From the NCBI GenBank assembly GCA_016199675.1, contig JACQGE010000103.1, forward strand, positions 1 to 32,205: a DNA stretch of 32,205 bases. The letters run 5' to 3'. The position numbers and the translations under genes are program-made. Origin of the DNA: Acidobacteriota bacterium (lineage in GTDB: Bacteria; Acidobacteriota; Terriglobia; 2-12-FULL-54-10). The first letter of the stretch is position 1. Every line of letters begins with the position of its first letter. The notes beneath the pieces are model-generated. The model worked only from the letters and a program-made list of their open reading frames with translations, did not search any database and was not told where the DNA came from. Below, piece after piece: positions 6,867 to 27,060 of this stretch.

Positions 6867-6869
6867 ACA

Positions 6870-6890
6870 ACAGGGGTAAGTTTACCCTGT
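6870..6890. terminator. Candidate bidirectional terminator hairpin
   Basis: ACAGGGGTAA and TTTACCCTGT form a short, near-perfect inverted repeat between two convergent genes (ends at 6866 and 6906). No strong T-run follows, so termination is only plausible. Confidence 0.35.
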
Positions 6891-6905
6891 GTGGGACAGC
6901 CTTTC

Positions 6906-7466: not shown

Positions 7467-7520
7467 ACTTCGCAGCCTCCTTCCGCTTATCGTAAAATTC
7501 ATAGTACGACAAAGAAAAGT

Positions 7521-7727
7521 TTAGCCATCACATACGCGATTTCCAGCCCGCCTGGTATTTCGATGAATCACGGGATACCGAGTCGGATGCGTAACGATGT
7601 TGTCAAGCGCTGATTGAACGGCTGCAAAGAAGTCATCCCCCAGGCCAGTACGCTGGCGCTCGTACCACAGAAACGCTTCCTCAATATCCGCGGCGGCGGC
7701 GGCAGCCGGGCGGAGGATGGGCCTCAT
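7521..7727 (-). CDS. RelE/ParE-family toxin, C-terminally truncated
   Basis: A 68-aa ORF matching the N-terminal two-thirds of ParE-like toxins: helices with IEEAFLWYERQRTGLGDDFF and AVQSALDNIVTHPTRYPVIH, then HRNTRRA. At that point intact relatives continue with a strand such as RRFPYAVFY and end near 90-100 aa. Here the frame ends in GNRVCDG and a stop, so the last beta strands are missing. The ATG overlaps the antitoxin stop by one base (TGATG), the usual coupling. It is probably inactive as a toxin; the other frames of the next 50 bases do not clearly restore the missing part. Confidence 0.65.
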   Translation of the reverse strand: MRPILRPAAAAAADIEEAFLWYERQRTGLGDDFFAAVQSALDNIVTHPTRYPVIHRNTRRAGNRVCDG

Positions 7728-7924
7728 CACCGGGCGCGCTCGCGAATCCGGCGGAGCACTTCATCCCAGGGGATGCCGGTGGGTCCCTCTCGATCCAACT
7801 CATCGAGCCGCCGGTCCAGCTCTTCCCGTTGCGCGTTGGTCAGGGAGATTGCCTCGGGCGTCGCTGAGAGACTCTCCCAAAGCGCATCCAAGAGTTGGAG
7901 CCGTTCTTCGAGACAGACTGGCAA
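7727..7924 (-). CDS. Addiction-module antitoxin (TIGR02574-like), frameshifted near its N-terminus
   Basis: The 65-aa frame reads LEERLQLLDALWESL, LTNAQREELDRRLDELD and GIPWDEVLRRIRERAR, which fit the short antitoxins paired with ParE/RelE toxins. In this frame the only start is TTG at 7924. The expected N-terminus, MAAIDIASLS, is present from an ATG at 7940 but in another frame. Restoring two bases in the short CT-repeat at about 7908-7918 would join them into the normal MAAIDIASLS-LEERLQ sequence. So a 2-bp slippage deletion probably broke the gene, or a weak TTG start is used. A TATAAT on this strand (7953-7948) sits 7 bp before the ATG. Confidence 0.65.
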   Translation of the reverse strand: MPVCLEERLQLLDALWESLSATPEAISLTNAQREELDRRLDELDREGPTGIPWDEVLRRIRERAR

Positions 7925-8036
7925 TGTCTATGGCTGCCATGTCATTTATTATACCGCTGTTTTGTTCCGCCTCTTATGCCGACGCAATTCGGTAGCCACG
8001 GCCTTCTTTCGCCTCTTCGGGGTCCTTCGAGGGCAT

Positions 8037-8501
8037 TCATTCGGGGTTGGATTTGAGAGAACTCTTCAGGGGTGCCATGATGTCAGAAAGCTCTTTCGGC
8101 GCATCCATTATTAATTGGATTATGGAATTCATTTTTTCAATCGTCTGTTGGAAGAATGGTTTTTCCGCTTCTACGGTTTTCACGAGTTTTGTCAAGACGG
8201 GTAGCTGCTCTCGTAGTCGAGCGGCTTCCTGACTATGCTCAAGGATATATGTTTCCCATGTGATTTGCTCAATCAGTTCTAGTCCTTCTTTGGCTAGGGC
8301 ACGAACGAGAAGAGCCTGTGGGAGTTCGTCAGCCATGACAAGTAAGACTTGCTCCAGAGGTCTTCCTTGCAAGAGGGAGTCGTAGTTTAGAAAGTGATCA
8401 GCCATCTCGCCGAGCGAGTGAGAAACCACCTCAAACCGTTGGGCTGCATGCGCCGCTCGCTCAAAGCAGTTCCGTGTACTAAACGCTGAGTCGGATGACA
8501 T
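8037..8501 (-). CDS. Uncharacterised helical protein downstream of higBA
   Basis: A 154-aa protein that I do not recognise. It is predicted by eye to be almost all helical, with heptad-like stretches such as ARLREQLPVLTKLVKTVEAE and FFQQTIEKMNSIIQLI. No signal peptide, cysteine cluster or catalytic motif is evident. The ATG at 8501 is 20 bp after the higA-like stop, with a weak CGGAG upstream, so it is probably co-transcribed with higBA. It could be a third component of that module or an unrelated passenger; nothing in the sequence decides this. Confidence 0.6.
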   Translation of the reverse strand: MSSDSAFSTRNCFERAAHAAQRFEVVSHSLGEMADHFLNYDSLLQGRPLEQVLLVMADELPQALLVRALAKEGLELIEQITWETYILEHSQEAARLREQLPVLTKLVKTVEAEKPFFQQTIEKMNSIIQLIMDAPKELSDIMAPLKSSLKSNPE

Positions 8502-8521
8502 ACGGTTGCTCCGTTCGCTGG

Positions 8522-8761
8522 TTATCCTTCGCCTCCACTCATCAACTCCGGGACGTGTTCGTCTTCGTAGCGTTCAATCAGCACGCCCACCACTTCCATC
8601 AAGGACGCTAAGGGATGTTTCTCGTCCTCTCCGACTTCATCTATTAAGCGATCCAGGAAAGCGACCAGCCGCCGGTATTCCGCCTCGGTATGGGGAACGG
8701 AGACTGCCTTGGCTAGCTCCGTCCAATGCGCGGTTACAGTCGAGACATTAGGCTTTGCCAT
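8522..8761 (-). CDS. HigA-type antitoxin-like protein lacking the HTH domain
   Basis: This 79-aa protein matches the N-terminal region of HigA/XRE antitoxins: TEAEYRRLVAFLDRLIDEV followed by a helix ending in LIERYEDEHVPEL. In usual HigA proteins a DNA-binding HTH comes next. Here the protein ends after only MSGGEG, and I found no HTH remnant in the few bases before the next gene. The ATG at 8761 follows AAGGTGG and lies 7 bp after the higB stop, the standard toxin-first order. It can probably still neutralise the toxin but may not autoregulate by DNA binding. An upstream in-frame start at 8794 is unlikely because it would overlap higB. Confidence 0.75.
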   Translation of the reverse strand: MAKPNVSTVTAHWTELAKAVSVPHTEAEYRRLVAFLDRLIDEVGEDEKHPLASLMEVVGVLIERYEDEHVPELMSGGEG

Positions 8762-8768
8762 GTCCACC

Positions 8769-9056
8769 TTACTCCTTCCATTTGCCTGCTTCATATTCGG
8801 TGTGAGTTAACACGGCACGAATATAGACGCGGCGACGATTATAATGAATGGCTGCCACCAAACGAGCTTTATTGCCGCCAATATTAAAGACGCTCAATTT
8901 TCCCACCTGGTCTGCGGCGGGGAAAACCTTCCGAACTTCCACAAAGGAAGAGAAGTTGCTGCGTTTCATCTCGTTATACCAGTGTTGCAACGCGCTACGG
9001 GTTTCCGGATGGCGGACACTGAACTCATTCAACCGCTTCCGGGTGATGATATGCAT
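8769..9056 (-). CDS. higB: HigB-family mRNA interferase toxin
   Basis: The 95-aa protein MHIITRKRLNEFSVRHPE... matches HigB toxins along its full length, including HWYNEMKRSNFSSFVEVRK, FPAADQVGKLSVFNIGGNKA, RLVAAIHYNRRRVYIRAVL and the closing THTEYEAGKW. HigB toxins cleave mRNA on the ribosome and are silenced by HigA. I chose ATG at 9056, with GGAACGAG upstream; the longer in-frame version adds unrelated residues. No frame damage is seen, unlike the neighbouring ParE-like module. It lies 37 bp after the remains of the Uma2 gene. Confidence 0.88.
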   Translation of the reverse strand: MHIITRKRLNEFSVRHPETRSALQHWYNEMKRSNFSSFVEVRKVFPAADQVGKLSVFNIGGNKARLVAAIHYNRRRVYIRAVLTHTEYEAGKWKE

Positions 9057-9093
9057 CTCGTTCCAGCGGTTATCCGATCCGGCATATTCTGTC

Positions 9094-9642
9094 CTACACC
9101 AACACCTCACTCACCACCAGCCGCAATCCGGGCAGCAGGGAGGTTTCCACTTTTTCGCCGGAGGAAAATTTCCGGGCCAATTGCAGCTTGTCGTCCCGGT
9201 GCGCATAAACTTCGCTGGTCTGCGTTTCCGGGTCCACGATCCAGTATTCCTAAACGCCGAATTGCGAATAAGCCGTCATTTTCTTGCGCAGGTCTTTATA
9301 GAAGGTGCTGGGCGAGAGAACCTCCACAACCAGGTCCGGTGCGCCTTCTATGGCTTCTTCCTTTACGATTCCCAGTCGCGAACTGCTGATGAACAAAACG
9401 TCGGGCTGTACCACCGTGTGTTGGTCAAAGAGGATGTCCACCGGAGCGATGAAGACTTCACCTAAGTTGTTCTTCTTTACATGAGTGTCCAATTCTTCGG
9501 CAACCCGCAGGACAATCTTTTGGTGCTTGGGCTTCGGTGCAGGGGTCATGAACAGCTCTCCGTCAATCACTTCGTACTGCTTGCCATCGTCGGGCAGTAG
9601 GCAATACTGGTCGTAGGTCATTTTGGTTGTGGCTTGTCTCAT
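9094..9642 (-). pseudogene. Uma2-family putative restriction endonuclease interrupted by an in-frame amber codon
   Basis: The reading frame from ATG 9642 encodes a Uma2/DUF820 protein: MTYDQYCLLPDDGKQYEVID, the PD-(D/E)xK core VQPDVLFIS and APDLVVEVLSPST, then YSQFGV. At codon 131 (9252-9250) there is a TAG. In the same frame the protein continues EYWIVDPETQTSEVYAHRD through LLPGLRLVVSEVL to a stop at 9094-9096, giving the normal family length of about 180 codons. Relatives usually have Arg, Gln or Lys at the interrupted position, so one base change would explain it. The intact downstream frame means the lesion is recent, a sequencing error, or read through. The gene starts 16 bp after the thiolase stop. 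Uma2 genes are usually multicopy with unclear roles. Confidence 0.82.
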
Positions 9643-9658
9643 GCCCTTATTGTAACCC

Positions 9659-10930
9659 TTAAAACGCCCGTTCCAGGATGGTGCAGGTGATGTAAGTGCC
9701 TGTTCCGGCGTGGCTGTGGATGAGGCCGCGCATGGGGCGGCTCTTCGACTTAGGTTTCACCTGAATAAAGCCGTCGCTGTTGTTGTGCTTGGCGATGGCC
9801 CCTTGAAGCTGCCAGAAAGCAAAGACGGCTTGCATCAGGCCCGTGGCTCCGACGGGATGACCGCAAGCGAGCAGGCCGCCGGACGGATTCACCGGCATTT
9901 TCCCGCGCAGTTCCGAAGCGCCGGACTCAATGAAGTGCCCCCCCTCGCCATAGCGGCAGAGGCCCAGGTCTTCGTAGGTTTGGATTTCGCTTGACGTATA
10001 GGCGTCGTGCAACTCAATGAAATCCAATTCTTCGACGGGATTGCGAATCCCGGCTTTTTCATAAACCATTTTGGCGGCCGAACGGCCGGCGCGAAAAGAA
10101 TGTACGCCGGGGTATTTCAGCTTCTTGTACCACTTGGCTTCCTCATGAGGCAGGAGGATTACTCCACCGTGAGGACGGTCGGCCATGCGCATGGCGTCGG
10201 AGCCTGCTCCAATGCCCGCAATCCTCACGGGCCGATCTGTCATGCGTTCGGCAATTTTTTCGTTGGCCAGGATGCAGACTGCCGCGCCATCGGACATCGT
10301 GCAAATATCGAGTTCCGTTAACGGATAGGCTACCATCGGCGCACGCCGCACGTCTTCGATAGTCAGGTTCAGGTGCTTCTGCGCCCAGATGTTGTGCAGA
10401 GCATTCTTGTGATTCTTGATCGAGACCTTGGCCAGTTGCTCCACCGTGGTTCCGAACTCGTGCATGTGGCGTACGACCATCATAGCGTAGTAGCCGCTGT
10501 AGAAACCGCCGACAGGGTAGTCGAAATTGGTGTCGGAAGCCAGGGCAATGAATTCGTTTCCTTTCCAGGTGTTCACGCGAGACATGGTTTCAAATCCCAT
10601 CGCTACAACGCAATCCATCCACCCGCTGGCCACGTGCCGGTAGGCTTCCTGGAAGCATAGACCACCGGTGGCTCCTCCACCTTCTACGCGGATGGTCGGT
10701 TTGGGAACCAGCCCGCACATGTCCACGGCCATCACTCCAGCCTTCAGTTGGCGCGTGAAATGATCGGAAAAATAGCTGACCACAGTCCCGTCAATGTCGT
10801 TCTTGCGCAGCTTGGGAACATCCCGCATGGCATAGTCGAACGCTTCCTTCACCATGACCCGGAAGCTCTTGCGCGACTCCGACTTGCGGAACTTGGTAAT
10901 GCCACCCGAAATCATATAGACAGGTCTCAT
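9659..10930 (-). CDS. SCP2-type thiolase family protein
   Basis: A 423-aa thiolase-fold protein like the acetyl-CoA acetyltransferase/SCP2 thiolases that work with DUF35 proteins. Visible motifs are MDCVVAMGFETMSR, SDGAAVCILANE, FIELHDAYTSSEIQTYEDLG, NPSGGLLACGHPVGATG and a C-terminal HSHAGTGTYITCTILER. The usual nucleophilic Cys lies in a VExxCASGG-type motif; here the corresponding stretch is VEGGGATGG (residues 82-90), with Gly86 in place of Cys. Activity as a classical thiolase is therefore doubtful; a role in acyl-CoA binding or a different reaction is possible. ATG at 10930 follows AAGGAG with 5 bp spacing. It lies 62 bp after the cobalamin-binding mutase subunit gene, suggesting one operon. 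Confidence 0.88.
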   Translation of the reverse strand: MRPVYMISGGITKFRKSESRKSFRVMVKEAFDYAMRDVPKLRKNDIDGTVVSYFSDHFTRQLKAGVMAVDMCGLVPKPTIRVEGGGATGGLCFQEAYRHVASGWMDCVVAMGFETMSRVNTWKGNEFIALASDTNFDYPVGGFYSGYYAMMVVRHMHEFGTTVEQLAKVSIKNHKNALHNIWAQKHLNLTIEDVRRAPMVAYPLTELDICTMSDGAAVCILANEKIAERMTDRPVRIAGIGAGSDAMRMADRPHGGVILLPHEEAKWYKKLKYPGVHSFRAGRSAAKMVYEKAGIRNPVEELDFIELHDAYTSSEIQTYEDLGLCRYGEGGHFIESGASELRGKMPVNPSGGLLACGHPVGATGLMQAVFAFWQLQGAIAKHNNSDGFIQVKPKSKSRPMRGLIHSHAGTGTYITCTILERAF

Positions 10931-10992
10931 CGGTTCTCCTTCTTGATCCCGCTGCCCCCAGAGGGCGGGAGCACGGGAATCACCGGGCAGCG

Positions 10993-16908: not shown

Positions 16909-18015
16909 ATGATCATCGAGCGCATCACGTTACGGGAGATCCAAATACCTCTGGTCTCCGCGTTTGAGACTAGCTTCGGAGCCACGATCCGCCGCCGCAT
17001 TCTCCTGGTGGAAGTACTCGGAGAGGGCGCGGTCGGCTGGGGAGAAGTGACTGCCGGGGAAACTCCTTTCTACAACGAGGAGAACACCGACACCGCTTGG
17101 ATCATCTTGAAGGACTTTGCCATTCCTCGGCTGCTGGACACGCCATTGATTTCGGCGGCTGCGGCCACGCCATGCTTCCAACAAATTCGCGGGCACCACA
17201 TGGCCACCGGAGGTTTGGAGGCAGCGCTTTGGGACTGGGAATCGCGATTGTCCGGCCGCCCGCTGTTTGATTTGCTGGGCGGGACACGGCGGGAGATTCC
17301 CTGCGGGGTCTCCATCGGCATCCAGAAAAGCGTGGAAGAATTGCTCCGGAAAATCAGGGTGGAGGTCGCGGCTGGTTACCAGCGGGTCAAGATCAAGATC
17401 AAACCGGGATGGGACGTTGATGTGCTGGAGCGGGTGCGGCAGGAGTTCCCAAGCCTGCGGCTGATGGCGGACGCGAACGGCGCATATACGCTGGCGGATC
17501 AGGAGCACCTGAAGCTGCTGGATCGCTTTTACCTGATGATGCTGGAGCAGCCGCTGGCCTACGACGACCTGCTGGACCATGCGCGGCTGCAACAGGCGTT
17601 GGAAACGCCCATCTGCTTGGATGAAAGCATCCGCACGGTGCGCACCGCCGAGCAGGCCATGGCCATTGGGGCTTGTCGCATCGTCAACATCAAGCTAGGC
17701 CGGGTGGGAGGACATAGAAATGCCCGTCAGATTCACGACTGCTGCCAGGAGGCGAACGTTCCGGTCTGGTGCGGAGGGATGCTGGAGTCCGGCATAGGGC
17801 GCGCGCATAACATTGCGTTATCCACCTTGCCCAACTTCGTTCTTCCAGGAGACGTATCGGCGAGCAAACGGTACTGGCAGCAGGATATCATCACGCCGGA
17901 AGCGGAAGTGACCCCGCAAGGAACCATCCTCGTTCCGGAAAGCCCTGGTTTCGGTTACAAGGTGAACCGGGAGCGCATCGAGCAGTTGACCGTCCGGCAA
18001 GAAACTTTCCCATGA
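16909..18015 (+). CDS. menC: o-Succinylbenzoate synthase / N-acylamino acid racemase family enolase
   Basis: A 368-aa enolase-superfamily enzyme of the MenC class II / NAAAR group. The capping domain has FETSFGATIRRR; the barrel has catalytic lysines Lys161 and Lys163 in RVKIKIKPGWD, metal ligands Asp188 (MADANGAY), Glu213 (LEQPLAYDD) and Asp238 (CLDESI), and the second acid/base Lys262 (NIKLGRVGG). GGMLESGIGRAHN is also typical. Family members dehydrate SHCHC to o-succinylbenzoate in menaquinone synthesis, racemise N-succinyl or N-acyl amino acids, or do both. No other men gene is present, while an EamA exporter is coupled by a 4-bp overlap, so an amino-acid role is as likely. The ATG at 16909 has only a weak GAGAAG upstream. 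Confidence 0.85.
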   Translation: MIIERITLREIQIPLVSAFETSFGATIRRRILLVEVLGEGAVGWGEVTAGETPFYNEENTDTAWIILKDFAIPRLLDTPLISAAAATPCFQQIRGHHMATGGLEAALWDWESRLSGRPLFDLLGGTRREIPCGVSIGIQKSVEELLRKIRVEVAAGYQRVKIKIKPGWDVDVLERVRQEFPSLRLMADANGAYTLADQEHLKLLDRFYLMMLEQPLAYDDLLDHARLQQALETPICLDESIRTVRTAEQAMAIGACRIVNIKLGRVGGHRNARQIHDCCQEANVPVWCGGMLESGIGRAHNIALSTLPNFVLPGDVSASKRYWQQDIITPEAEVTPQGTILVPESPGFGYKVNRERIEQLTVRQETFP

Positions 18016-18935
18016 GGAATAAAAGCGAATTGCGAGAAGCTCTGGAGGCAGCGGCGGCTCCGACAGAACATCCCCCGTTACGAGCGTATGTGGGCATTCT
18101 TGCCGCTACCCTTTTCTGGTCCAGCAATGTAGCGGCGGTGAAATTGATCGTGCGGGAACTGCCGTACCCCACGGCGGCGGGCCTGCGCATGGTTCTGGCA
18201 GCCTTGACGCTGGCTGTTTTCTATTGGGCGCGGGGCGGGAGGTTTCGCTTTCGCCCGGGCGAGGTGCGTCAATTTTTGACGCTGGGTTTCTGGGGGCTAA
18301 CGCTGAGTTTCTTTTTCTTTACCGTAGGGGTGTATTACACCAGTGTTTCCCATGCTGTGCTAGTAGGCGCGCTAGCGCCAGTGGCGGTCCTTCTTCTAGC
18401 CCGGATAAAAGGACAGGAGCGGATCACTTCTGGAAAGCTGATCGGATTGCTGATCGCTTCGCTGGGAGTTTGCCTGCTGGCCTTGGATAAAACGTCCGGC
18501 CCCGGCCCAAGCTGGAAAGGGGACCTGATCGTGGGAGCCGCAGTGTGCAGCTTTGCTTATTTCACTGTGGAGAGCAAACAGATGGCAGCGGCCTACGATC
18601 CCCTGGGCTTCAATACCTATTGTTTCCTGGCAGCCGGGATTTGGTTTGTGCCGTGGCTGAGCTGGGCGTTATGGCGCCTGCCGTGGGGAGAGATCACCTG
18701 GATAGGATGGTCCAGCCTGTTGTATTCGGCCACGGTGGGATCAGCAGGAGCCTATCTCGCTTTTTATTATTCCTTGCGGTGGCTGAAGGCTTCCGAAGTC
18801 GCCGTTTTCCATTACATGCAGCCGGTGCTGGCCACTATCCTGGGGGTCTGGCTATTTCAAGAATCGTTGACTCCGCGTTTTGAAGCCGCCGCCGCACTGA
18901 TCCTGACAGGCGTTTTTTTGGCCGAGCGGCAATAA
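18012..18935 (+). CDS. EamA-family (DMT superfamily) permease
   Basis: A 307-aa inner-membrane transporter of the drug/metabolite superfamily with about ten hydrophobic segments arranged as two EamA repeats. The first repeat starts at ILAATLFWSSNVAAVKLIV and contains YYTSVSHAVLVGALAPVAVL; the second includes AVCSFAYFTVESKQMA and LKASEVAVFHYMQPVLATIL. Such carriers export amino acids, nucleotides or other metabolites. Its ATG overlaps the menC-like stop by 4 bp, so the two are co-translated and the permease may move the enolase substrate or product. The 3' end is followed by a dispersed repeat rather than an obvious terminator. Confidence 0.9.
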   Translation: MRNKSELREALEAAAAPTEHPPLRAYVGILAATLFWSSNVAAVKLIVRELPYPTAAGLRMVLAALTLAVFYWARGGRFRFRPGEVRQFLTLGFWGLTLSFFFFTVGVYYTSVSHAVLVGALAPVAVLLLARIKGQERITSGKLIGLLIASLGVCLLALDKTSGPGPSWKGDLIVGAAVCSFAYFTVESKQMAAAYDPLGFNTYCFLAAGIWFVPWLSWALWRLPWGEITWIGWSSLLYSATVGSAGAYLAFYYSLRWLKASEVAVFHYMQPVLATILGVWLFQESLTPRFEAAAALILTGVFLAERQ

Positions 18936-18954
18936 AACCAAAAAGCCCACGGCA

Positions 18955-19020
18955 CAAAGGGCCCTTCGACTACGCTCAGGACAAGCTCGGGACAGGCTCA
19001 GGGCAGGCAGGGACAAGCTT
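18955..19020. repeat. Dispersed short repeat with CTTCGACTACGCTCAGGACA core
   Basis: The stretch CTTCGACTACGCTCAGGACA, followed by degenerate reiterations of GGGACAGGCTCAGG and GGCAGGGACAAGC, resembles a very common short dispersed repeat in environmental genomes. It lies directly after the EamA gene, in a 224-bp gap before the HEPN gene end. AAAGCCCAC also occurs twice in the gap (near 18950 and 19110). Confidence 0.5.
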
Positions 19021-19159
19021 TAGCCTACGGCAGTGAGGAATTAATTATTAGAACCACTTTTTCGGCACGGGTGAAACTGTGCCCTGACAAACGCAAAGAG
19101 CCGGGGCCAAAAGCCCACAGCGAGGAAAGCGAGAGCCGTGTCTAGACGCTGCTGATTCT

Positions 19160-20680
19160 TCAGATCACTGTCCACCACTCGGGGACGTTCGGGAAAGAAT
19201 CGGGCAATGCTTGTAGTATTTTGGCGGTACGCCGTCGCCTTTCGAGATCCATATCGAAAACTTTCAAAAGGTCCTCCCTGCTCGGCACCTCTGCGACTCC
19301 GTCCGGCAGGTGCTGGGCCACATGATTCAAATAGCCGAGCATCCATAAAACCACGGCACGGGCCATTTCCCACGCTTCATTTACGTATAGATATTGAAGA
19401 TGCGACTTTTCCTCGAAAGGTGTATTTCCATGAACAAGGTTAGACCTGAACTCGTACAGATTGTTAAAGCGCTTCTTGATTTCTCTTATTTCCTGAGGCG
19501 AACTCGCCAGGATTCTCGAGATTCGAGTTCTCAGCAGCCTCGTAAGGCCGTAATCTACCTTCTCTCCGAGGACCGCTTCAATTGCTGTAATACTCCAGAG
19601 AAGCCCTTCCTTGTCATCAGAAATAAAGGCCTTGAAAAGGAAATCAAGGGCGGTATTCATAAAATTCCATCCCCTTGCATTTATTTCGGTGAGCATCTTT
19701 GAAACTTGTTTCATGACTGCAGCAAACTGTGCAGTCTTCTCAGCCTCGTGCAAAGGAAACTCTGCTTCCGCTTCTCCCTCCGCACCGATTTCCAGGTCCA
19801 TCCACGTTTCACGGACTTTCCCCTCATGGAGAATGCGAGGTCCACGAATCTTCAATTCCAACCGCGAAAAGTCCGGACAGCTTTGCGGCCAGTGAATTAG
19901 GCTGTCCCAGGTGGATATGACCAGCGGAAAACGGGGCCGTGGGGGGACGATTCCATCTTGTGTTAAAAACCCGACTGTCTGATCTTCACGTTGGATAGAA
20001 AGAATTGCACCACTTGGCTCCCAGGTATAGAGCATCAGGTGTTTAATCGCAAGGGCTACGCTGTCAAGAGCAGGCTTTCGCCCTACAGGGATAAAGATAG
20101 TAAACATTCCCAGTTTCCCTGTAACAGAAACATTCTCCGTAACGCATATGAACCAGTAATGGCTAATCTTTTCCAGATCGACATAAGCCTCCGGGTAAAA
20201 GACCCGCTTAACCCGGTTGCGAAGGATGTGATCCAGTTCCTCTTTTGAAAACCGCTGAATCCGGAATGTCCCGCAATCCAAAAGATCAGCACTGAAATCC
20301 ACGAGTTGTATAGGTGCGAGATGGGTGACTCTGTATGTCTTGGAAGTAAAGGCCTTCTCGTAGTTCAAGAAAACTTCCGATCTTTCCCATGGTTCATCGT
20401 TAAAGAGTACTTGGTATATGCCCGAGAGTCTAAAGTAATTTCGCACCTCAAGCTCCAACACGTCTGACTGGTCTCCTAAAAACTCTTGTGCAGTAGTCTG
20501 TGTGAGATCGAGGAAGGCTGTGGCCCCTTCGGCTTCCTTAACAAGCCGAACCAGCAACTGGTCCTCCGTCATCAGCAAGCGGACTGATGAGCTAGAACCG
20601 GATTCTGCTTTTCCCTCTTGGAAAAGAGTCTCAACAAGGGTTAGATAGTTGACGATTGATGTTTCAAGTTCTGGTGACAT
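19160..20680 (-). CDS. Large protein with a C-terminal Apea-like HEPN domain
   Basis: A 506-aa protein. The first 320 residues are of no family I can name; they look like a mixed alpha/beta sensor-like region with SVRLLMTEDQLLVRLVKE and RVTHLAPIQLVDFS. The C-terminal part fits the Apea-like HEPN family: LLWSITAIEAVLGEKVDYGL, then LRTRISRILASSP and FNNLYEFRSNLVHGNTPF, with the RNase-type RX4H motif Arg412-SNLV-His417. HEPN domains often act as RNA-cleaving effectors in abortive infection or toxin systems. I chose ATG at 20680, preceded by GAGTTGGAAAC; the open frame extends upstream through repeat DNA and is not credible there. It diverges from the HEPN-like gene at 21585, with a Y1 transposase between. 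A TATAAT on this strand at 20803-20798 is a possible -10. Confidence 0.75.
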   Translation of the reverse strand: MSPELETSIVNYLTLVETLFQEGKAESGSSSSVRLLMTEDQLLVRLVKEAEGATAFLDLTQTTAQEFLGDQSDVLELEVRNYFRLSGIYQVLFNDEPWERSEVFLNYEKAFTSKTYRVTHLAPIQLVDFSADLLDCGTFRIQRFSKEELDHILRNRVKRVFYPEAYVDLEKISHYWFICVTENVSVTGKLGMFTIFIPVGRKPALDSVALAIKHLMLYTWEPSGAILSIQREDQTVGFLTQDGIVPPRPRFPLVISTWDSLIHWPQSCPDFSRLELKIRGPRILHEGKVRETWMDLEIGAEGEAEAEFPLHEAEKTAQFAAVMKQVSKMLTEINARGWNFMNTALDFLFKAFISDDKEGLLWSITAIEAVLGEKVDYGLTRLLRTRISRILASSPQEIREIKKRFNNLYEFRSNLVHGNTPFEEKSHLQYLYVNEAWEMARAVVLWMLGYLNHVAQHLPDGVAEVPSREDLLKVFDMDLERRRRTAKILQALPDSFPNVPEWWTVI

Positions 20681-20863
20681 GTTTCCAACTCGCCAATACG
20701 CAGCGTCGGCACGCCTTTGGTCCCGTGGGTGTTTACAGGTCGGATTATCGTTCTGGAACGGGCATTGCACCACGCGCGAATGCTCCAGGGCAAAGTTATT
20801 ATAGCTGGACCAGCCAGTCTTTGGGGCTTTTCCAGGGGCTTTTTCACCACAGAAGAAAACAGG

Positions 20864-20907
20864 GTCCGCTTGCTTACGCGCGCGGCTCGGATCGGCGCGG
20901 CTCGGAT
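20864..20907. repeat. REP unit, left flank of the Y1 transposase
   Basis: A 29-bp unit at 20864-20892 is repeated in inverted orientation at 21420-21448 with a single mismatch. GCGCGGCTCGGAT recurs in tandem at 20880-20892 and 20895-20907, so the flank is doubled. The last bases overlap the transposase stop codon. The G/C-rich palindromic sequence and position identify it as a REP associated with the RAYT. Confidence 0.8.
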
Positions 20908-21413
20908 TATTGTCTCTCCCAAACTGCCATTGGTTCTCCTTGCTCGCGGGCAACGTAGTGAATGGCAGCTCCTATCTCCTCCGGCTTCCACAAATACCGT
21001 GTGCTTCCGTGACGAGTCCAACGCTGTCGGCTGTTGCTATCCATTCCTGTTTGGTGTAGGGCGCGGCTGGCATACGCCTTTACATCATTGAGAACCTTCT
21101 CTGGACCCGCCTCTGCTGTTACTACCATATGAACATGACTATGCCGCACATGGGCTGCCAGCAGTGTCCAGCCTCGGTGGGCACAAACTTTTTGAAGTGC
21201 GTCCAGCACGACGGTTCTGCGGTGGCTGTCGAGTTGATATGCCTCTTGTTTCATTTGCCTCTGTTCGGCTACAACCCTTCGCGGGTTCGGAGCCAGAAAG
21301 GGCGTACCTGGGACGTTGTGCTCCTGATCCACCGAACCAGCTTCATCTCCATACAAACGTGTCCCATAGCAGGTGAAAGTGATGAGATAAGCGAGCGGAA
21401 TAAGCTGAACCAT
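20907..21413 (-). CDS. REP-associated tyrosine transposase (RAYT, Y1_Tnp family)
   Basis: A 168-aa Y1 HUH-type transposase related to IS200/IS605 TnpA. The opening LAYLITFTCYGTRLYGD is typical of RAYTs. The HUH motif is His93-Val-His95 in HVRHSHVHMVV, and the likely catalytic tyrosine is Tyr114 in NDVKAYASRAL. YLWKPEEIGAAIHYVAREQGE closes the protein. RAYTs process REP single-stranded DNA and are usually single-copy domesticated enzymes that maintain REP families. I chose ATG at 21413; the longer frame reads through the REP itself (its LADARGSD peptide is a translated repeat). REP units flank the gene on both sides in opposite orientation. Confidence 0.9.
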   Translation of the reverse strand: MVQLIPLAYLITFTCYGTRLYGDEAGSVDQEHNVPGTPFLAPNPRRVVAEQRQMKQEAYQLDSHRRTVVLDALQKVCAHRGWTLLAAHVRHSHVHMVVTAEAGPEKVLNDVKAYASRALHQTGMDSNSRQRWTRHGSTRYLWKPEEIGAAIHYVAREQGEPMAVWERQ

Positions 21414-21419
21414 CGTGTC

Positions 21420-21470
21420 ATCCGAGCCGCGCGCGTCAGCAAGCGGACATTTCAAATGCGCGCGTCAGCA
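21420..21470. repeat. REP unit, right flank of the Y1 transposase
   Basis: The 29-bp inverted partner of the left REP lies at 21420-21448 (28 of 29 identical). A second partial unit follows: GCGCGCGTCAGCA occurs at 21429-21441 and again at 21458-21470. The flank is thus doubled, as on the left. Confidence 0.8.
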
Positions 21471-21515
21471 GGTTCGTATAACAGACCGTTTGACAAAAGG
21501 CAAGACAGGTTTTTG

Positions 21516-21540
21516 GGTAATTACTACGTTGACACACATT
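21516..21540 (+). repeat. Left half of a 25-bp imperfect inverted repeat; also holds TTGACA
   Basis: GGTAATTACTACGTTGACACACATT is present here as 25 bp (first 8 and last 12 conserved) and recurs inverted at 23581-23605 with 22 of 25 identical. It includes a perfect TTGACA (21529-21534) upstream of the HEPN-like gene; a matching -10 at 17 bp is weak (AATCTA), so promoter function on this side is uncertain. Confidence 0.55.
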
Positions 21541-21584
21541 GTGTTAGACTGAATCTACGCAGGCTGGTAAGCCTGTGGGAGATC

Positions 21585-22421
21585 ATGAATTTATTTAAAC
21601 TTGAGCAATTGGCTGCTCTTATTGCGCAGATCGAAGGCATGATTAGTTTGTGTGATTTCCCAATGGCGTATCGCCGCGCTGCTGACCCCATACCAGAACA
21701 ACTCAAATTGCAGATAGTACAAACAATACCTCAAGCAAGGATGCTGTTTTCAGACATCCGGCTCACGGAATCGGTTAGGCAAGTGGATTTGGCCGGCCAC
21801 TATTTGTCCGCAAATCCACCACCTAACGTTTCCGAAGCCAAGACTGAACTGCGTCGAATCATAGACACCTTGATAACGGAGTTGAAAGAAAGAAAATTTC
21901 TTTTTGTTGAATCTAGCCTCATCGGATATGTTGATAACCAGGCTCCTTTTGGGCAGCAAGTATATGATGCTTTCCCTAGCGCACGATTTGATATAACCGA
22001 GGCCGGTAATTCTATTACTTGTCGGCTGAACAGCGCGGCAGGATTTCACTTGGTTCGAGCCGCCGAAGTAGGACTATGGGAACTTGGCAAAGATCGCCGG
22101 ATTCCATTGGCACGGGCTGGCAAGATCGAATTCGCGGAATGGGGGCACATTATTGGGGAACTCGAAAATGAAATTAAGGCTATCCAGCAATGGCCCAATT
22201 CTTACGTTAAGGAAGATGCTCACAAGTTCTACAATTCTGCGCTTGTTGAAATACGATCTTTCAATGACGGCTGGAGGCGGCACTTAGCACATGTCCGCAA
22301 AACGCAACAACCACTGCGCGATGATGAGGCACTGGCGCTTTTGGGGCACATTGAAAGATTCCTGAAAATCATAGCTACTAAAATCTCAGAGGGGAACTAC
22401 ACTCCTACAATCTGGAAATGA
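21585..22421 (+). CDS. HEPN-like domain protein of a widespread uncharacterised family
   Basis: A 278-aa soluble protein. I recognise the family pattern but not a named function: AFPSARFDITEAGNSITC, then SAAGFHLVRAAEVGLWEL, EWGHIIGELENEI and a C-terminal helical bundle. The last region, FNDGWRRHLAHVRK, carries an RX4H motif (Arg231-RHLA-His236), followed by DDEALALLGHIERFLKIIA, as in HEPN-type ribonucleases. RNase activity is inference. I chose ATG at 21585, with TGGGAG 4 bp upstream; the frame is open much further upstream, through the transposase region, which is not credible. Its stop overlaps the next tiny gene (ATGA). It diverges from the Apea-like HEPN gene and is read toward the IS1595 transposase. 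Confidence 0.75.
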   Translation: MNLFKLEQLAALIAQIEGMISLCDFPMAYRRAADPIPEQLKLQIVQTIPQARMLFSDIRLTESVRQVDLAGHYLSANPPPNVSEAKTELRRIIDTLITELKERKFLFVESSLIGYVDNQAPFGQQVYDAFPSARFDITEAGNSITCRLNSAAGFHLVRAAEVGLWELGKDRRIPLARAGKIEFAEWGHIIGELENEIKAIQQWPNSYVKEDAHKFYNSALVEIRSFNDGWRRHLAHVRKTQQPLRDDEALALLGHIERFLKIIATKISEGNYTPTIWK

Positions 22422-22570
22422 GAAAGATTATTAAACCGGAAATGGAAGAAGGCCCGAAGGCCAGGGAGAAGTTCGAGCTGGCGATGAAAGCGGTATTCCG
22501 TGTGCCGAAGTCTGAAATAGTGAAGACAGAGAAGAAGTACAAACAGAAGCGGAAACGGAAGAAGTCCTAG
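22418..22570 (+). CDS. Tiny basic protein translationally coupled to the HEPN-like gene
   Basis: A 50-aa frame, MRKIIKPEMEEGPKAREKF... with VFRVPKSEIVKTEKKYKQ and a very basic Lys/Arg tail. Its ATG overlaps the stop of the HEPN-like gene by 4 bp (ATGA), the classical arrangement for coupled translation. I recall similar short FxxxMKxVxxVPKSEI-type proteins in Acidobacteriota but know no function. It could be an antitoxin-like or RNA-binding partner of the HEPN protein, or an accessory gene of the IS1595-type element that starts right after it. Confidence 0.65.
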   Translation: MRKIIKPEMEEGPKAREKFELAMKAVFRVPKSEIVKTEKKYKQKRKRKKS

Positions 22571-22597
22571 CCCTTCCGCTTCCCGCGTCCTTGGCGC

Positions 22598-23557
22598 TTA
22601 GTTCGCTTGCCTCGCGTCAAATTGCTCGTTGCCGGTTAGTTGGGAGAAGGTAACGCGCTTGCCAAATACATCTCCCATTGCCAGTTCAAACCGCTCTGCA
22701 TCTGTCATGTCCTTGCGGTTGTTATAGCGGAAAGCTTGCTCATCAAGGTAACGGAACAAATGGAACGGCTCAACACTCACGTAGGTTCCGGCAATACCGC
22801 GCTTCAAAAGCGCCCAGTAATTTTCCAACCCGTTTGTGTGGATGTTCCCTTCAACATAGGAAACGGCATGGTCAATCACTTGATGTGCGTACTTCGCTCC
22901 GAGACCTTCATACGAGAGCAATTCATCGGAGTAGAGCGCCGCCCCAGCACGGACGTGCCTATTGACTTCGACTTGAAGCGTCTTTTTCTTCCGATTATCA
23001 ACAACCATTGTGCGAACTTCGCCGCCACGTTTCAGAATCCCCATGACCGGAACCTTGTCCACGGTTCCACATCCGGTGATTCTCCGTTGCTTTTTGGCAA
23101 GATGCATGTTCCGAGCTTTACCGCCAATAAAGGTTTCGTCAACTTCAACTTCGCCGCCAAGTTTTTTGAAAGAACCGTTCTGCATTGCGAGACGAAGCCG
23201 GTGCGCCATGAACCAAGCCGACTTTTGGCTAATCCCAAGATCACGGGCAATTTCGCAACTACTGATTCCGTTCTTACAGTTCACAAGCAGCCACATCGCA
23301 GTCATCCACTTGTCCATTCCGAGGGGAGAATCCTCAAAAATTGTTCCGACCTTCATTGTGAATTGCCGCTCACAGTTCTTGCAGAACCAAATTCGGCGGG
23401 ACGAAATGAAAGAGTGCTTGTCGGAGTCGCAGCGCGGGCATGTTACCTTGCCGCTAGGCCAACGAAGTTTCACGGCATACTCGAAACATTTTCCAGGATC
23501 GGCAAAATAGGCAATTGCTTCTTGCAAGGTTTGTGGGGTTTCGGTTCTTTTTTCCAT
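22598..23557 (-). CDS. IS1595-family transposase (ISXO2-like)
   Basis: A 319-aa DDE-type transposase. An N-terminal zinc ribbon (Cys40, Cys43, Cys59, Cys62: TCPRCDSD and WFCKNCERQFT) is followed by an HTH (ISSCEIARDLGISQKSAW). The catalytic domain has Asp140 (VEVDETFIGG), Asp211 (LYSDELLSYEG) and NGLENYWALLKRG with Asn242 and Lys252, matching the DDNK pattern of IS1595. The frame is intact, so the enzyme may be active. The ATG at 23557 has no ribosome site and sits 6 bp after a strong -10 box, which suggests a leaderless transcript. It converges on the tiny gene ending at 22570. Confidence 0.93.
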   Translation of the reverse strand: MEKRTETPQTLQEAIAYFADPGKCFEYAVKLRWPSGKVTCPRCDSDKHSFISSRRIWFCKNCERQFTMKVGTIFEDSPLGMDKWMTAMWLLVNCKNGISSCEIARDLGISQKSAWFMAHRLRLAMQNGSFKKLGGEVEVDETFIGGKARNMHLAKKQRRITGCGTVDKVPVMGILKRGGEVRTMVVDNRKKKTLQVEVNRHVRAGAALYSDELLSYEGLGAKYAHQVIDHAVSYVEGNIHTNGLENYWALLKRGIAGTYVSVEPFHLFRYLDEQAFRYNNRKDMTDAERFELAMGDVFGKRVTFSQLTGNEQFDARQAN

Positions 23558-23563
23558 GCACAA

Positions 23564-23592
23564 ATAATACACTGGAAATGAATGTGTGTCAA
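23564..23592 (-). promoter_or_regulatory. Strong promoter of the IS1595 transposase
   Basis: On the minus strand a perfect TTGACA (23592-23587) and TATTAT (23569-23564) are separated by exactly 17 bp. The ATG of the transposase at 23557 lies where transcription would begin, so the mRNA is probably leaderless. Confidence 0.75.
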
Positions 23593-23605
23593 GTTAATAA
23601 TTACC
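23581..23605 (-). repeat. Right half of the 25-bp imperfect inverted repeat
   Basis: Inverted partner of 21516-21540 with 22 of 25 positions identical, including the 12-mer TTGACACACATT. The pair brackets the HEPN-like gene, the tiny gene and the transposase (2,090 bp). This copy contains the -35 box of the transposase promoter. Confidence 0.55.
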
Positions 23606-23792
23606 GGTTTTTGTCCGGTAGTGGGCTAGTTTGAAAGCAGCCCCCACTACCCTTTGTCGGTCGCGGCTCGATTAGCATTTGACTGTGGGATGTGGGATCA
23701 CAGGACATGACAAAAACCCGTAGAATTCCGAGTAGCCTCAAGGCAAGAAGATCGGGGATAATTGGCTACCAAATCGAAAAAAGGAGGCGGGC

Positions 23793-24389
23793 ATGACTGT
23801 AGCAGAAGCAACCATCGTCAAAGGAATTGATGCAAGACAGTTGGAAAGTTTCAACAAACAGTACACGGCTTCCCCCGAGAAGTTTGTGCTCGGACTACAA
23901 GCAAAGACCATGTGGGAGGGGCGAGGACTCGGTAATCTCGGCAAGGTAGGGCCGTGGACTCTCGGAGGCCAGCCCATCGTAAAACCTACGCGAGATTTCT
24001 CGGTGCAGCTTGGCTCGTGGAAAGAGGTTGGCGACGCGATTGGAGTAGAAGGAGCCGATGACAGAATTGAACCCGTAGAAGCGGCCCTTCTGGCGCTGTC
24101 GTCCTGCGTCACCGAGGCCATTACGCTGAACTGCGCTCGCACCGGAGTCCCGCTGGAAGGCCTTGAAGTTACCGCAAACATGGATGTGGATCCGGGACCG
24201 ATCATTGGCGTCAAGGATCCCAGCGACTGGAAGAATAGCCTGAAAGAAATTCGGGTGAATGTAACTGCGCGCGGCAAACTTTCCGAGAGGGACCGGAAAA
24301 TGGTGGAGGAAGGGGCCACCCGATCCCCGGTCCATCACATTTTTAGCAGCGGAAAACAGGTCAGGACGACATTCCGTTATGAGGCGTAG
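23793..24389 (+). CDS. OsmC/Ohr-family protein
   Basis: A 198-aa OsmC-fold protein. The core helix carries PVEAALLALSSCVTEAITLNCARTG with Cys105 at the usual peroxidatic position. In OsmC and Ohr a second Cys normally lies in a CPVxxTL-like motif; here that site is RSPVHHIF with Ser178, so the two-Cys thiol peroxidase mechanism may not apply. Cys114 in the same helix is an extra candidate. A 70-residue N-terminal region precedes the fold, longer than in Ohr. ATG at 23793 follows GGAGG with 5 bp spacing. It is monocistronic by appearance and lies just outside the IS1595 right end. Confidence 0.85.
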   Translation: MTVAEATIVKGIDARQLESFNKQYTASPEKFVLGLQAKTMWEGRGLGNLGKVGPWTLGGQPIVKPTRDFSVQLGSWKEVGDAIGVEGADDRIEPVEAALLALSSCVTEAITLNCARTGVPLEGLEVTANMDVDPGPIIGVKDPSDWKNSLKEIRVNVTARGKLSERDRKMVEEGATRSPVHHIFSSGKQVRTTFRYEA

Positions 24390-24433
24390 AGCGTGATTCG
24401 TTTGCGGTGGGCATCCGCGAGTTTTTAACGACG

Positions 24434-24517
24434 AACCTCAGCGGCTGAAGCTGTATTGAAATTGCAACATATATGGCGCGATTCTCACCCCGGCGCGCTG
24501 AAAACAGCTCGCCGGGG
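24434..24517. repeat. Dispersed palindromic repeat with strong hairpin
   Basis: AACCTCAGCGGCTGAAGCTG at 24434 recurs at 27101 as AACCTCAGCGGCTAAAGCCG. Here it is followed by a strong hairpin: CCCCGGCG-C-GCTG-AAAA-CAGC-T-CGCCGGGG (24488-24517), 12 pairs with one mismatch and an AAAA loop. The stretch lies in the 593-bp gap (24390-24982) after the OsmC-like gene; no gene was recognised in that gap. No T-run follows the hairpin, so it looks more like a repeat element than a terminator. A further 7-bp dyad GTGTTCG / CGAACAC sits at 24587-24605. Confidence 0.65.
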
Positions 24518-24713
24518 GCGCTATGCTGTAAGGGTTGAAATGTAGGCCGGGGCAGACCCTTCAAGGGCGAGCACGGCCTTGATAGCGTGTTCGTTGGCCG
24601 AACACTGGTAAGGAAAATTTCTCTTCTTTTCTATTCCCCTCCATCAAAATAACTCAGGGCGTGCTTGCCGCGCTCGAAAATGCTGGCCGCAATCTATTTC
24701 CCGAATTTTTTAC

Positions 24714-24908
24714 TTGACCCAGCCAACCCCATTTTCATAGCATGGGCATCAGATTCGGAAGATTGCTGTAGAAATTTCCGGACGTGGAAGAGGAATTTCC
24801 GGCAACCGGGGAAAAACGCAAGGCGGGTCTAGTCGAGCGAGTAGAAAAACGGTTTTTGTTCTTTCAGGCGCGATAAGGCTTGGGAAGGCGCTAGTGTTGG
24901 CGCGCCAA
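24714..24908 (+). promoter_or_regulatory. Putative control region of the choice-of-anchor V protein gene
   Basis: TTGACC (24714-24719) is a possible -35 with a weak -10 (CATAGC). Downstream, AATTTCCGG occurs twice as a direct repeat at 24773-24781 and 24794-24802, spaced 21 bp, two helical turns. A perfect 12-bp palindrome TTGGCGCGCCAA lies at 24897-24908, 74 bp before the gene. These could be protein-binding sites. Confidence 0.35.
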
Positions 24909-24982
24909 GAGAGCTGTTTATTGCGTGCTGACAAGAACACGCCAATGAATTGCGGCGTCATCCGGCTGAGGAGGGTAGAAAT

Positions 24983-26962
24983 ATGACGGTAAATCTGCGC
25001 AAGAAAAAACGGGCGATGGTTTTACTCGGTATCGTATGGGGCGGCCTTCTGGTGGCATTCCTGCTCTTCGCGAATTCCGTAGCGCCCCCAGCGGGCAACA
25101 CCGGCGGCTTTGGGGAGCCTACCTGCGCGCAAGCAGGTTGCCATGTCGGGACTGCTGTGAATGGAGTGCCTGGGGGGAGTGTGACCATTAGCGCTCCTTC
25201 GTCTTACACCAGCGGCGCCACCTACCCGATTCACGTCATCGTGACTGACCCTACCGCGCGGCGCTGGGGGTTCGAACTGAGCGCCCGGACACTGAACGGG
25301 CAGCAGGCGGGAATGCTCATTGCGGGCAATGATGGGAACAGCCAATTGCTGAGTCCGATCAATGGGATTCAATACGTAGGGCACACCTTGCAAGGGAGCC
25401 GCGGCGGCGTGACGGGGAGCGTGAGCTTTGATTTCCCTTGGCAAGCTCCCGATGTTTCAGCCGGCCCTATCATCTTCCACGCGGCTGGAGATGGCGCCAA
25501 CAATGATTTCAATACAACGGGGGACCATATCTACACGACCTCAATAACCGTACAACCGGCGTCTGACTCGACGCCCTCCAGTACTTACTACTTCCCTCAT
25601 CTGGCGTTGGGAGGAGGCTGGCAAACTACGCTTACCTATACCAACTATTCTCCCCAAACCGTTAGTTGCGCCACGACCTTTTATTCAGATTCCGGAGGCC
25701 CTCTATCGGTTTCCTTTGGGGGCACAGCAGCGTCCAGCCGCACAGATACGCTTGCACCGGGAGCAGTCCTTCATACCGAAAGCACGGCCGACCTGAATGC
25801 CGCCGAAGTCAGAGGCTGGGCGAAGGCACAGTGCAGTGGGCCGATCAAGGCCAGCTTGCTGTTCCGTTTTTACCAGCAGGGCAAGCCCATAGGCGAGGCC
25901 GGAGTGAATGCCATGACGGAACTGGCGACCAAGTTCGTCACATTCTCCGATCAAACTACCGGAGTTGCCTACGCGAATCCGTCCACTCAGCCAGCCTCAG
26001 TTACCTTTTCTGCCTTTAACTCTGATGGAGTGAAGCTGACTAGCAAAAGTCTGACGCTGTTAGCCGGAGCACATGACGCCGCTAACGTGGGACCTTTTCT
26101 CGGCGTGAGTAGTAGTTTTAGGGGTTCGATTCAGATTGAATCCACGGTTCCCATCGCCAGCTTATCGCTCAATGCCGAGGCCTTTCCGTCTTTCTCCTCT
26201 TTACCTCCAGGGGAACTAGGTACTTCCATCCAGCCACCTCCCGCCGCCTATTATTTCCCTCATCTGGCGTTAGGAGCCGGCTGGCAAACCACGCTGACCT
26301 ATATCAATTTTTCCCCACAAACCGTTACTTGCACGACGACATTCCTTTCTGATTCTGGAAGCCCCTTGTCGGTTTCCTTTGGTGGCGCGGCGGCTTCCAG
26401 CCGCACAGACACACTCGCGGCGGGGGGAGTTCTTCATGAAGAAAGCAAAGCCGACCTGAACGCCCCCGAAGTCAGAGGTTGGGCGAAGGCGCAGTGCAAC
26501 GGGCGGATTAAGGCCAGCCTCCTATTCCGTTTCTACCAGCAGGGCAAGCCCATCGGAGAGGCGGGTGTGAATGCGATGACGACTACGGCCACCAAGTTTG
26601 TTACTTTCTCCGATCAAACCACCGGAGTTGCCTATGCGAATCCATCCACCCAATCAGCCTCCATCACCTTTAATGCTCTTGGCCTGGACGGAATCAAGCT
26701 GGCCAGCAAAAGTTTAACGCTGGCAGCCGGAGCACACGACGCTGCGAACATGGGCCCCTTCCTAGTCCTCAACATCTTCAAGGGTTCTATTCAGGTCATT
26801 TCCACGGTTCCGATTATCAGCTTGTCGCTGAACGCGGAAGCGTTTCCGTCGTTTTCTTCTTTGCCTGCCGGGGAACTGGACGACTCCACTCCGCTGGCAA
26901 CTGGCGAGAACAGTAACCCGGGCCCAGAACCGCCCCCGCCGGACTACAGTTATGGCTATTAA
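24983..26962 (+). CDS. Exported choice-of-anchor V protein with CX4CH motif and duplicated domain
   Basis: A 659-aa secreted protein. A signal/anchor segment spans residues 10-31 (AMVLLGIVWGGLLVAFLLFA). A choice-of-anchor V / reeler-like domain follows, with PTCAQAGCHVG: Cys48, Cys53 and His54 form CX4CH, a possible unusual haem-c site. WGFELSAR and QAGML are typical of the domain. Two near-identical 221-aa modules come next, from residues 202 and 423, each beginning YYFPHLALG and ending SLSLNAEAFPSFSSLP, with two conserved Cys that could form a disulfide. The end is Pro-rich. I chose ATG at 24983, preceded by GAGGAGGG. It is probably extracytoplasmic; function unknown. The next gene also encodes a CXXCH protein. 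Confidence 0.82.
   Translation: MTVNLRKKKRAMVLLGIVWGGLLVAFLLFANSVAPPAGNTGGFGEPTCAQAGCHVGTAVNGVPGGSVTISAPSSYTSGATYPIHVIVTDPTARRWGFELSARTLNGQQAGMLIAGNDGNSQLLSPINGIQYVGHTLQGSRGGVTGSVSFDFPWQAPDVSAGPIIFHAAGDGANNDFNTTGDHIYTTSITVQPASDSTPSSTYYFPHLALGGGWQTTLTYTNYSPQTVSCATTFYSDSGGPLSVSFGGTAASSRTDTLAPGAVLHTESTADLNAAEVRGWAKAQCSGPIKASLLFRFYQQGKPIGEAGVNAMTELATKFVTFSDQTTGVAYANPSTQPASVTFSAFNSDGVKLTSKSLTLLAGAHDAANVGPFLGVSSSFRGSIQIESTVPIASLSLNAEAFPSFSSLPPGELGTSIQPPPAAYYFPHLALGAGWQTTLTYINFSPQTVTCTTTFLSDSGSPLSVSFGGAAASSRTDTLAAGGVLHEESKADLNAPEVRGWAKAQCNGRIKASLLFRFYQQGKPIGEAGVNAMTTTATKFVTFSDQTTGVAYANPSTQSASITFNALGLDGIKLASKSLTLAAGAHDAANMGPFLVLNIFKGSIQVISTVPIISLSLNAEAFPSFSSLPAGELDDSTPLATGENSNPGPEPPPPDYSYGY
25586..26911 (+). 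repeat. In-frame 663-bp tandem duplication within the coding sequence
   Basis: Copy 1 starts at 25586 and copy 2 at 26249; the offset is 663 bp, or 221 codons. Long stretches are nearly identical at the DNA level (for example the part encoding LLFRFYQQGKPIGEAGVNAM), with scattered changes. The duplication is recent or kept similar by gene conversion. Confidence 0.9.
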
Positions 26963-27060
26963 GATTTGACGAGAAAGATTGACAGGCAACCGTGATTGGG
27001 GCGCGATGGATCAAGTTGTCAGTTGCCTGATCAGAACAAGGGCTAGAGCATTTTTACAAA

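Follow-up and report, generated by a model that had tools for sequence, protein, structure and literature searches.

A 2.1-kb IS1595-type element with an HEPN-like cargo gene and a tiny companion gene in an Acidobacteriota bacterium

We analysed a stretch of 32,205 nucleotides from an Acidobacteriota bacterium (the window) and found that, judged from its sequence, the block at 21516-23605 is a complete element of 2,090 bp, inserted with an 8-bp target duplication. It comprises, in order, a left end, an HEPN-like gene, a tiny gene, a convergent IS1595 transposase gene and a right end. We are confident that the whole is one IS1595-family transporter IS, sitting at GGTTTTTG, with HEPN-type cargo and a tiny protein that belongs to the transposon backbone. 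Its features are:

21508-21515, no strand: left copy of the 8-bp target duplication GGTTTTTG (end-pair search)
21516-21540, plus strand: left terminal inverted repeat, 22/25 to the right one (repeat search; end consensus of 34 elements)
21585-22421, plus strand: P0001, HEPN-like cargo gene, 278 aa, Rx4H motif from R231 to H236; start uncertain
22418-22570, plus strand: P0002, tiny basic protein, 50 aa; its ATG overlaps the stop of the HEPN-like gene
22577-22596, no strand: 20-base stretch, 18/20 to a conserved word beside the transposase stop
22598-23572, minus strand: P0003, IS1595 family transposase, 324 aa, zinc ribbon and DDE domain (Pfam, NCBIfam, alignment)
23564-23592, minus strand: promoter-like match TTGACA-17-TATTAT (11/12) for the transposase, with the -35 box inside the right end
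23581-23605, minus strand: right terminal inverted repeat (repeat and end-pair searches)
23606-23613, no strand: right copy of the 8-bp target duplication GGTTTTTG (end-pair search)

A preliminary description of this DNA had reported 25-bp inverted repeats that agree at 22 positions, and the repeat search returned the same arms, 21516-21540 and 23581-23605 (25 nt, 88% complementary), with TTGACACACATT in both. Both ends begin with GG. The target duplications that it had proposed to look for outside the repeats are present: the outer 8 bases of the two arms are identical, in direct orientation and exact (GGTTTTTG). Duplications of 8 bp usually flank IS1595-family members according to the pertinent part of PMC8101967, and the part of PMC12561309 on ISApl4 gives that element as an example. 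As a chance control, we shuffled window positions 18001-27000 200 times with dinucleotide content kept and scored the best combination of a 25-bp inverted repeat and an exact 8-bp direct repeat directly outside it; the best scores were 12-16/25, and the real element (22/25) lies above all shuffles. The end-pair search found no rival left end beside the transposase, the runner-up pair around it reaching just 11/25, in agreement with the earlier remark that no left IS terminus adjoins this gene. IS copies ending in the 27 bases between the tiny and transposase genes (22571-22597), which would have spoken for a smaller element, were not found: the block has one copy in its own genome (a draft of 198 contigs, 86.6% complete), and all 34 elements delimited below carry a further frame.

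The preliminary description had also suggested a search for the 2.1-kb block at other loci or for an empty site. The same layout does occur in locus L003, but no empty site was found among 41 genomes, own included, searched with window positions 20400-24600; this search gave transposase, REP, RAYT-region and short right-flank matches. Because no empty site was found and the block is single in its genome, mobility was not observed. To the left of the element, a minus-strand gene at 20907-21455, which we take to be RAYT-like, lies between 29-nt inverted repeats (20864-20892 and 21420-21448, 97%). Near-identical 25-35-nt copies of these repeats are scattered in the same genome and in family relatives, in the manner of REP-type repeats.

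The transposase looks intact by sequence criteria. P0003 scores 139.4 bits against PF12762 (DDE_Tnp_IS1595, cut-off 27), 47.7 bits against PF12760 (Zn_ribbon_IS1595, cut-off 25.4) and 177.5 bits against NCBIfam NF033547 (transpos_IS1595, cut-off 75). Its zinc ribbon cysteines C45, C48 and C64 are conserved in the transposase alignment, and D145, D216, E250 and K257 are conserved in at least 97% of 68 transposase rows. In the section of PMC8101967 on the family, the N-terminal zinc ribbon is missing solely from the IS1016 group. A plasmid search with P0003 gave 197 records, all below 60% identity, and a scan of viral contigs gave no pattern match.

Elements of the same kind are found elsewhere in the phylum, where 105 of 396 genomes have transposase matches. 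We took the stretches around the best 41 transposase places, the window's own included, together with L003 and L004 (43 transposases in all), and 20 more distant transposase loci for comparison; the counts below therefore describe the examined loci rather than the whole phylum. End pairs of 18-25/25 were found for 34 of the 43 transposases, 33 of them with an exact abutting 8-bp duplication; the remaining one, L083, has good ends (24/25). The duplications are partly a product of the search, since it required an exact one, and the end match is the independent evidence. Second-best end pairs printed in the survey reach at most 14/25, except for a shifted register in L057. L004 adds a 35th delimited element, so that L003, L004 and 32 others are known beyond the window. 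Eight transposases (L058, L062, L073, L078, L080, L081, L086, L087) have no end pair with exact duplication, and the counts omit the second transposase of L085, a distant one that has ends of its own (21/25). The 34 elements measure 1,896-4,584 bp (median 2,456), and in each of them mechanical frame finding gave at least one open frame of at least 100 aa besides the transposase (56 in total). End pairs of 18-25/25 with exact duplication also delimit 12 of the 20 distant loci at 1.9-3.6 kb, and the extra length, probably cargo, is therefore not special to the clade with the tiny gene.

L003 holds an HEPN relative, a tiny gene and a convergent transposase between ends at 3526 and 5727, with the duplication GTAATTAG. 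L004 (ends at 3738 and 7055, duplication CAAAAGCG) has its transposase turned round and contains further open frames. With the duplication in the window, these two elements at different duplications bear out the earlier proposal of a larger IS1595-type element with passenger genes. An HEPN relative without a transposase had been named as an observation that would speak against this, and one exists, in L002, where neither transposase nor right end was found; but a possible start of its HEPN frame lies 71 bp past a sequence that matches the left-end consensus at 20/21, and for this reason the locus is probably a remnant of such an element.

L158 (5028-6514) is an element without a transposase, with ends of 24/28 and a duplication of 7 of 8; it contains a 254-aa DUF3800-like frame (identified by eye), a tiny gene and, in a frame of 111 aa, a C-terminus similar to the tail end of other tiny proteins. 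L056 has two different elements (6309-8565 and 8853-10947) separated by 287 bp in one genome; each has a duplication and cargo of its own. Other contigs of the window's own genome carry two further IS1595 elements of a distant branch, L093 (1027-2947) and L094, of 1.9-2.0 kb, with ends of 19/25 and 24/25, exact 8-bp duplications AAAAAGTC and AAAGATGG, and no tiny gene.

The motif Rx4-6H is typical of the HEPN superfamily, many members of which have RNase activity. In P0001, the Rx4H motif (R231, H236) is invariant in the alignment of 6/6 HEPN homologues. An AlphaFold2 model built from 4 sequences (pLDDT 73.5, pTM 0.50) has a C-terminal helical bundle at residues 127-271 and a further helical part N-terminal to it. 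Residues 127-271 align to the HEPN structures 2q00, 2hsb, 1wol, 4nqf, RnlA 4i8o and Csm6 6tug with Z 8.8-11.0, HEPN structures thus being among their best fold matches, though the model is of middling confidence and unrelated helical proteins reach similar Z. A Foldseek search with the model gave no match at E ≤ 0.001; these last two results are why we grade the HEPN fold of P0001 as likely, not proven. P0001 has no match in Pfam, NCBIfam or PADLOC, lacks a transposase domain by Pfam, and its two hits in a sequence search of the PDB (E 0.94 and 0.96) are at chance level. HEPN-MNT toxin-antitoxin systems have an adjacent nucleotidyltransferase (MNT) gene; no MNT gene lies next to P0001, which shares the element only with P0002 (no Pfam or NCBIfam match) and the transposase. 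The HEPN assignment draws on this motif and on moderate fold matches; P0001 is most likely an RNA-cutting effector, for host defence or element retention.

The species collection contains three relatives of P0001 (L002, L003 and L004), each from an acidobacterial MAG. These relatives can start further upstream, with a conserved RLxSLxxI-like N-terminal stretch. Such a stretch also lies in frame ahead of 21585 in the window copy, but from the end repeat to 21585 the frame has no ATG, GTG or TTG. L002, L003 and L004 have leaders that are ~50-60 bp longer. The protein may thus start at 21585, or the window copy may be slightly worn. HEPN-type cargo occurs in the elements of the window, L003, L004, L057 and L076, and in L122 of a distant branch; the proteins of L057 and L076 are just 20-25% identical to P0001. 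An HEPN profile search of 396 genomes gave matches in 8 genomes at 9 places. Among six of these loci that we examined, L122 is part of an element, a single end-like sequence lies near L124, and no IS1595-type ends were found near L088, L123, L125 and L126. For three plasmid relatives (22-27% identity), the annotated neighbours include no IS1595 transposase, and a scan of viral contigs with A1 (115 stretches) found no relatives. Since HEPN relatives exist without a nearby element, the gene family is wider than the transposon and not exclusive to it.

Cargo in the other elements is diverse. We scanned 40 of the 56 frames with Pfam, the window's own being scanned separately, and 10 with PADLOC. 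The Pfam cut-off was reached by 13 of the 40 (Bro-N in L083 just at it), so that most cargo, 27 of 40 frames, has no family assignment. L052 and L054 encode a DNA methylase with a C-terminal Mrr-type match, which is above the cut-off in L054 only. L055 encodes an AbiU-like protein (E 6.5e-155; Pfam AIPR), L065 a GmrSD-type N-terminal domain followed by a frame with an HNH match just under the cut-off, L066 a RelA/SpoT-domain protein matching the PADLOC candidate PDC-S33 (E 2.1e-118), and L068 an AAA ATPase alongside a DUF3226 protein, with AbiLi and PDC-M38A/B as best PADLOC matches. DUF3800, to our knowledge a domain of no known function, is above the cut-off in L064, L067, L070, L072 and L075. 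By these resemblances, the cargo includes restriction-modification, AbiU-like and other defence-type proteins.

Comparison of transposases and cargo indicates that cargo has been swapped between transposon backbones over time. In the transposase tree, the window is nearest to L049, L050 and L051 (99/94), whose cargo has no resemblance to HEPN. The five backbones with HEPN-type and tiny genes imply 5 changes on this tree, and well-supported branches force at least 4 of them; as L003 is the sister of the window group (90/79), its HEPN cargo may share one origin with that of the window. L049 and L050, from one genome, are 78% identical in DNA over 1,059 columns, from 26 nt before the tiny stop through the transposase, with no alignable cargo before it. 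In a distant branch, L122 (6370-10053) is an IS1595 element with an HEPN relative, ends of 18/22 and the duplication TTATAGAG; HEPN cargo was thus acquired more than once or crossed between branches.

P0002 is probably translated together with the HEPN-like gene. We built a tiny-protein profile iteratively from 13 seeds, which detects the gene in 26 of 34 elements at E < 1e-3 and in 31 of 34 at E < 1 (13 of the 31 hits being those seeds). It had no hit in L066, L083 and L085, though L083 has a similar-looking frame, and none in the 20 loci of other transposase branches. Five of the eight transposases without delimited ends still have the tiny gene (E < 1e-9). All tiny-bearing transposases examined fall in one clade of 46 rows (100/100), of which 5 rows are without a tiny label; weak hits were counted as tiny-bearing, as was L083, labelled by eye without a profile hit. 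Searched alone in 396 genomes, with up to 16 candidates scored per genome, the tiny gene occurs in at least 40 places in at least 25 genomes. Among the 40 places listed, 33 lie within 3 kb of a transposase match (in two, L162 and L166, a short transposase piece only); of the other seven, L158 is the transposase-free element described above, a single end-like sequence was found at both L159 and L165, L161 adjoins a contig edge, and nothing element-like was seen at L160, L163 and L167.

The tiny gene is under coding constraint (dN/dS ~0.27, 0.13 and 0.40 for three pairs; for a fourth pair dS was not computable). Its products, in 23 members, are 43-68 aa long with a net charge of +3 to +12, and the window's is predicted to be a two-helix hairpin with a turn at V29-P30 (pLDDT 80, pTM 0.37, 3 sequences). 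No Pfam or NCBIfam family is matched by more than one of the 23, and one tiny protein searched against plasmids gave no match. In 16 of 31 elements, the tiny and transposase stops share 2 nt within a YTAG word, so that no terminator could fit between the two genes; in 8 of 31 the tiny gene is more than 150 nt from the transposase stop or oppositely oriented. The window's tiny gene ends 27 nt earlier, ahead of where it ends in many relatives, and this early stop, with the short HEPN leader that has no upstream start, suggests that the window copy may be worn. Of the 34 elements, 17 have beside the transposase stop a 20-base word close to CGCTTCCCGCGTCCCTGCCG (15/20 or better); these scores are biased, because the word was derived from these same elements. 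Examples are window positions 22577-22596, L053, L056 and L067; the word is coding in some elements and noncoding in others, and was found in 0 of the 20 distant loci.

Could the repeats be merely similar promoters of unrelated neighbouring genes, as the preliminary description had offered as an alternative? TTGACA is present in both, and the right repeat does hold the -35 box of the 11/12 match; matches of at least 9/12 occur in 30 of 34 right and 12 of 34 left ends (counted without a shuffle control), and the region has 4 sites like the 11/12 match against 2.3 expected. A promoter-like right end leaves unexplained, though, why an exact 8-bp duplication abuts both repeats and why the same end consensus recurs with different 8-bp duplications at other loci, and as a full account of the repeats we reject this reading as very unlikely. 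It is also very improbable that a smaller IS1595 element lies beside an older HEPN/tiny pair, with the left repeat a coincidence or an older solo end. Such an arrangement would fit the HEPN relatives without a nearby element (L088, L123, L125, L126 and the three plasmid loci), but it is the far left repeat that the duplication matches to the right one, the search gave no left end closer to the transposase, and L003 and L004 hold the same gene set between their ends.

That the HEPN-like and tiny genes form a toxin-antitoxin pair stabilising the element, with the tiny protein as antitoxin, is a more serious candidate, yet still unlikely. The genes overlap, the partner is small and basic, and P0001 has a fold match to the toxin RnlA (Z 9.6). 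Against this, the tiny protein also accompanies unrelated cargo (DUF3800, methylases, AbiU-like and RelA/SpoT-like proteins), and in L002, read by eye, the HEPN gene is kept but was not seen to be followed by a tiny gene. Because unrelated cargo has it too, the tiny protein is hardly an HEPN-specific antitoxin, although a generic effect is possible; being tied to the transposase clade whatever the cargo, it is better seen as part of the transposon backbone than as a partner of HEPN.

On the reading that we prefer, a single transporter IS with cargo, the transposase would recognise both ends and the DNA between them would move as one unit. The HEPN protein would cut RNA and confer a benefit through host defence or element retention, and our preferred guess is that the tiny protein helps or restrains transposition. 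With the tiny gene so often ending on the transposase stop, we expect transcription of the cargo to continue into the transposase gene and yield RNA antisense to it. A bolder proposal, which we hold only tentatively, is that this clade of IS1595 mini-transposons acts as a shuttle, in which a fixed module (ends, transposase and a basic helical-hairpin protein of ~43-68 aa, its gene interlocked tail-to-tail with that of the transposase) carries small, exchangeable defence-type genes; the small protein would be a dedicated and as yet undescribed transposition factor or regulator, and the antisense overlap would couple cargo expression to transposase control.

Small one-transposase elements are usually counted as selfish IS. 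Here, 34 of 34 delimited relatives have further frames, several of them resembling anti-phage systems. Transposons with passenger genes are a known kind, and the preliminary description was right that the family has such members: the passage of PMC3129680 on transporter ISs, which gives Siguier et al. 2009 as source, describes them as IS copies with passenger genes. The window element resembles the IS1595 transporter IS of that passage in its transposase domains, 8-bp duplication, ends beginning with GG and genes inside that do not serve transposition, P0001 being unrelated to transposition and lying between the ends. It differs in that its clade has its own small gene interlocked with the transposase gene and HEPN- or defence-type cargo. 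L158, with ends, cargo and a tiny gene and without a transposase, is like the mobile insertion cassettes named in the same source, unlike the window element, which has its own transposase. With the Tn7-like transposons treated in part of PMC8649781 the window element shares variable cargo that includes defence genes, but it is far smaller and has a single transposase of another family. P0001, like RnlA, Csm6 and archaeal HEPN proteins, has the Rx4H motif and an alignable bundle, and differs from them in having no family match and an additional helical N-terminal part. We recognised no report of this small gene or of HEPN cargo in IS1595 in the open-access papers searched, which do not include the founding paper.

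Overall, the further frames in all 34 relatives, several of them anti-phage-like, make the ends of these elements a direct route to new defence candidates: anything between such ends, including HEPN-type proteins of no known family, would have travelled as cargo, and the small protein tied to the transposase would be a new, testable component of a DDE transposon.
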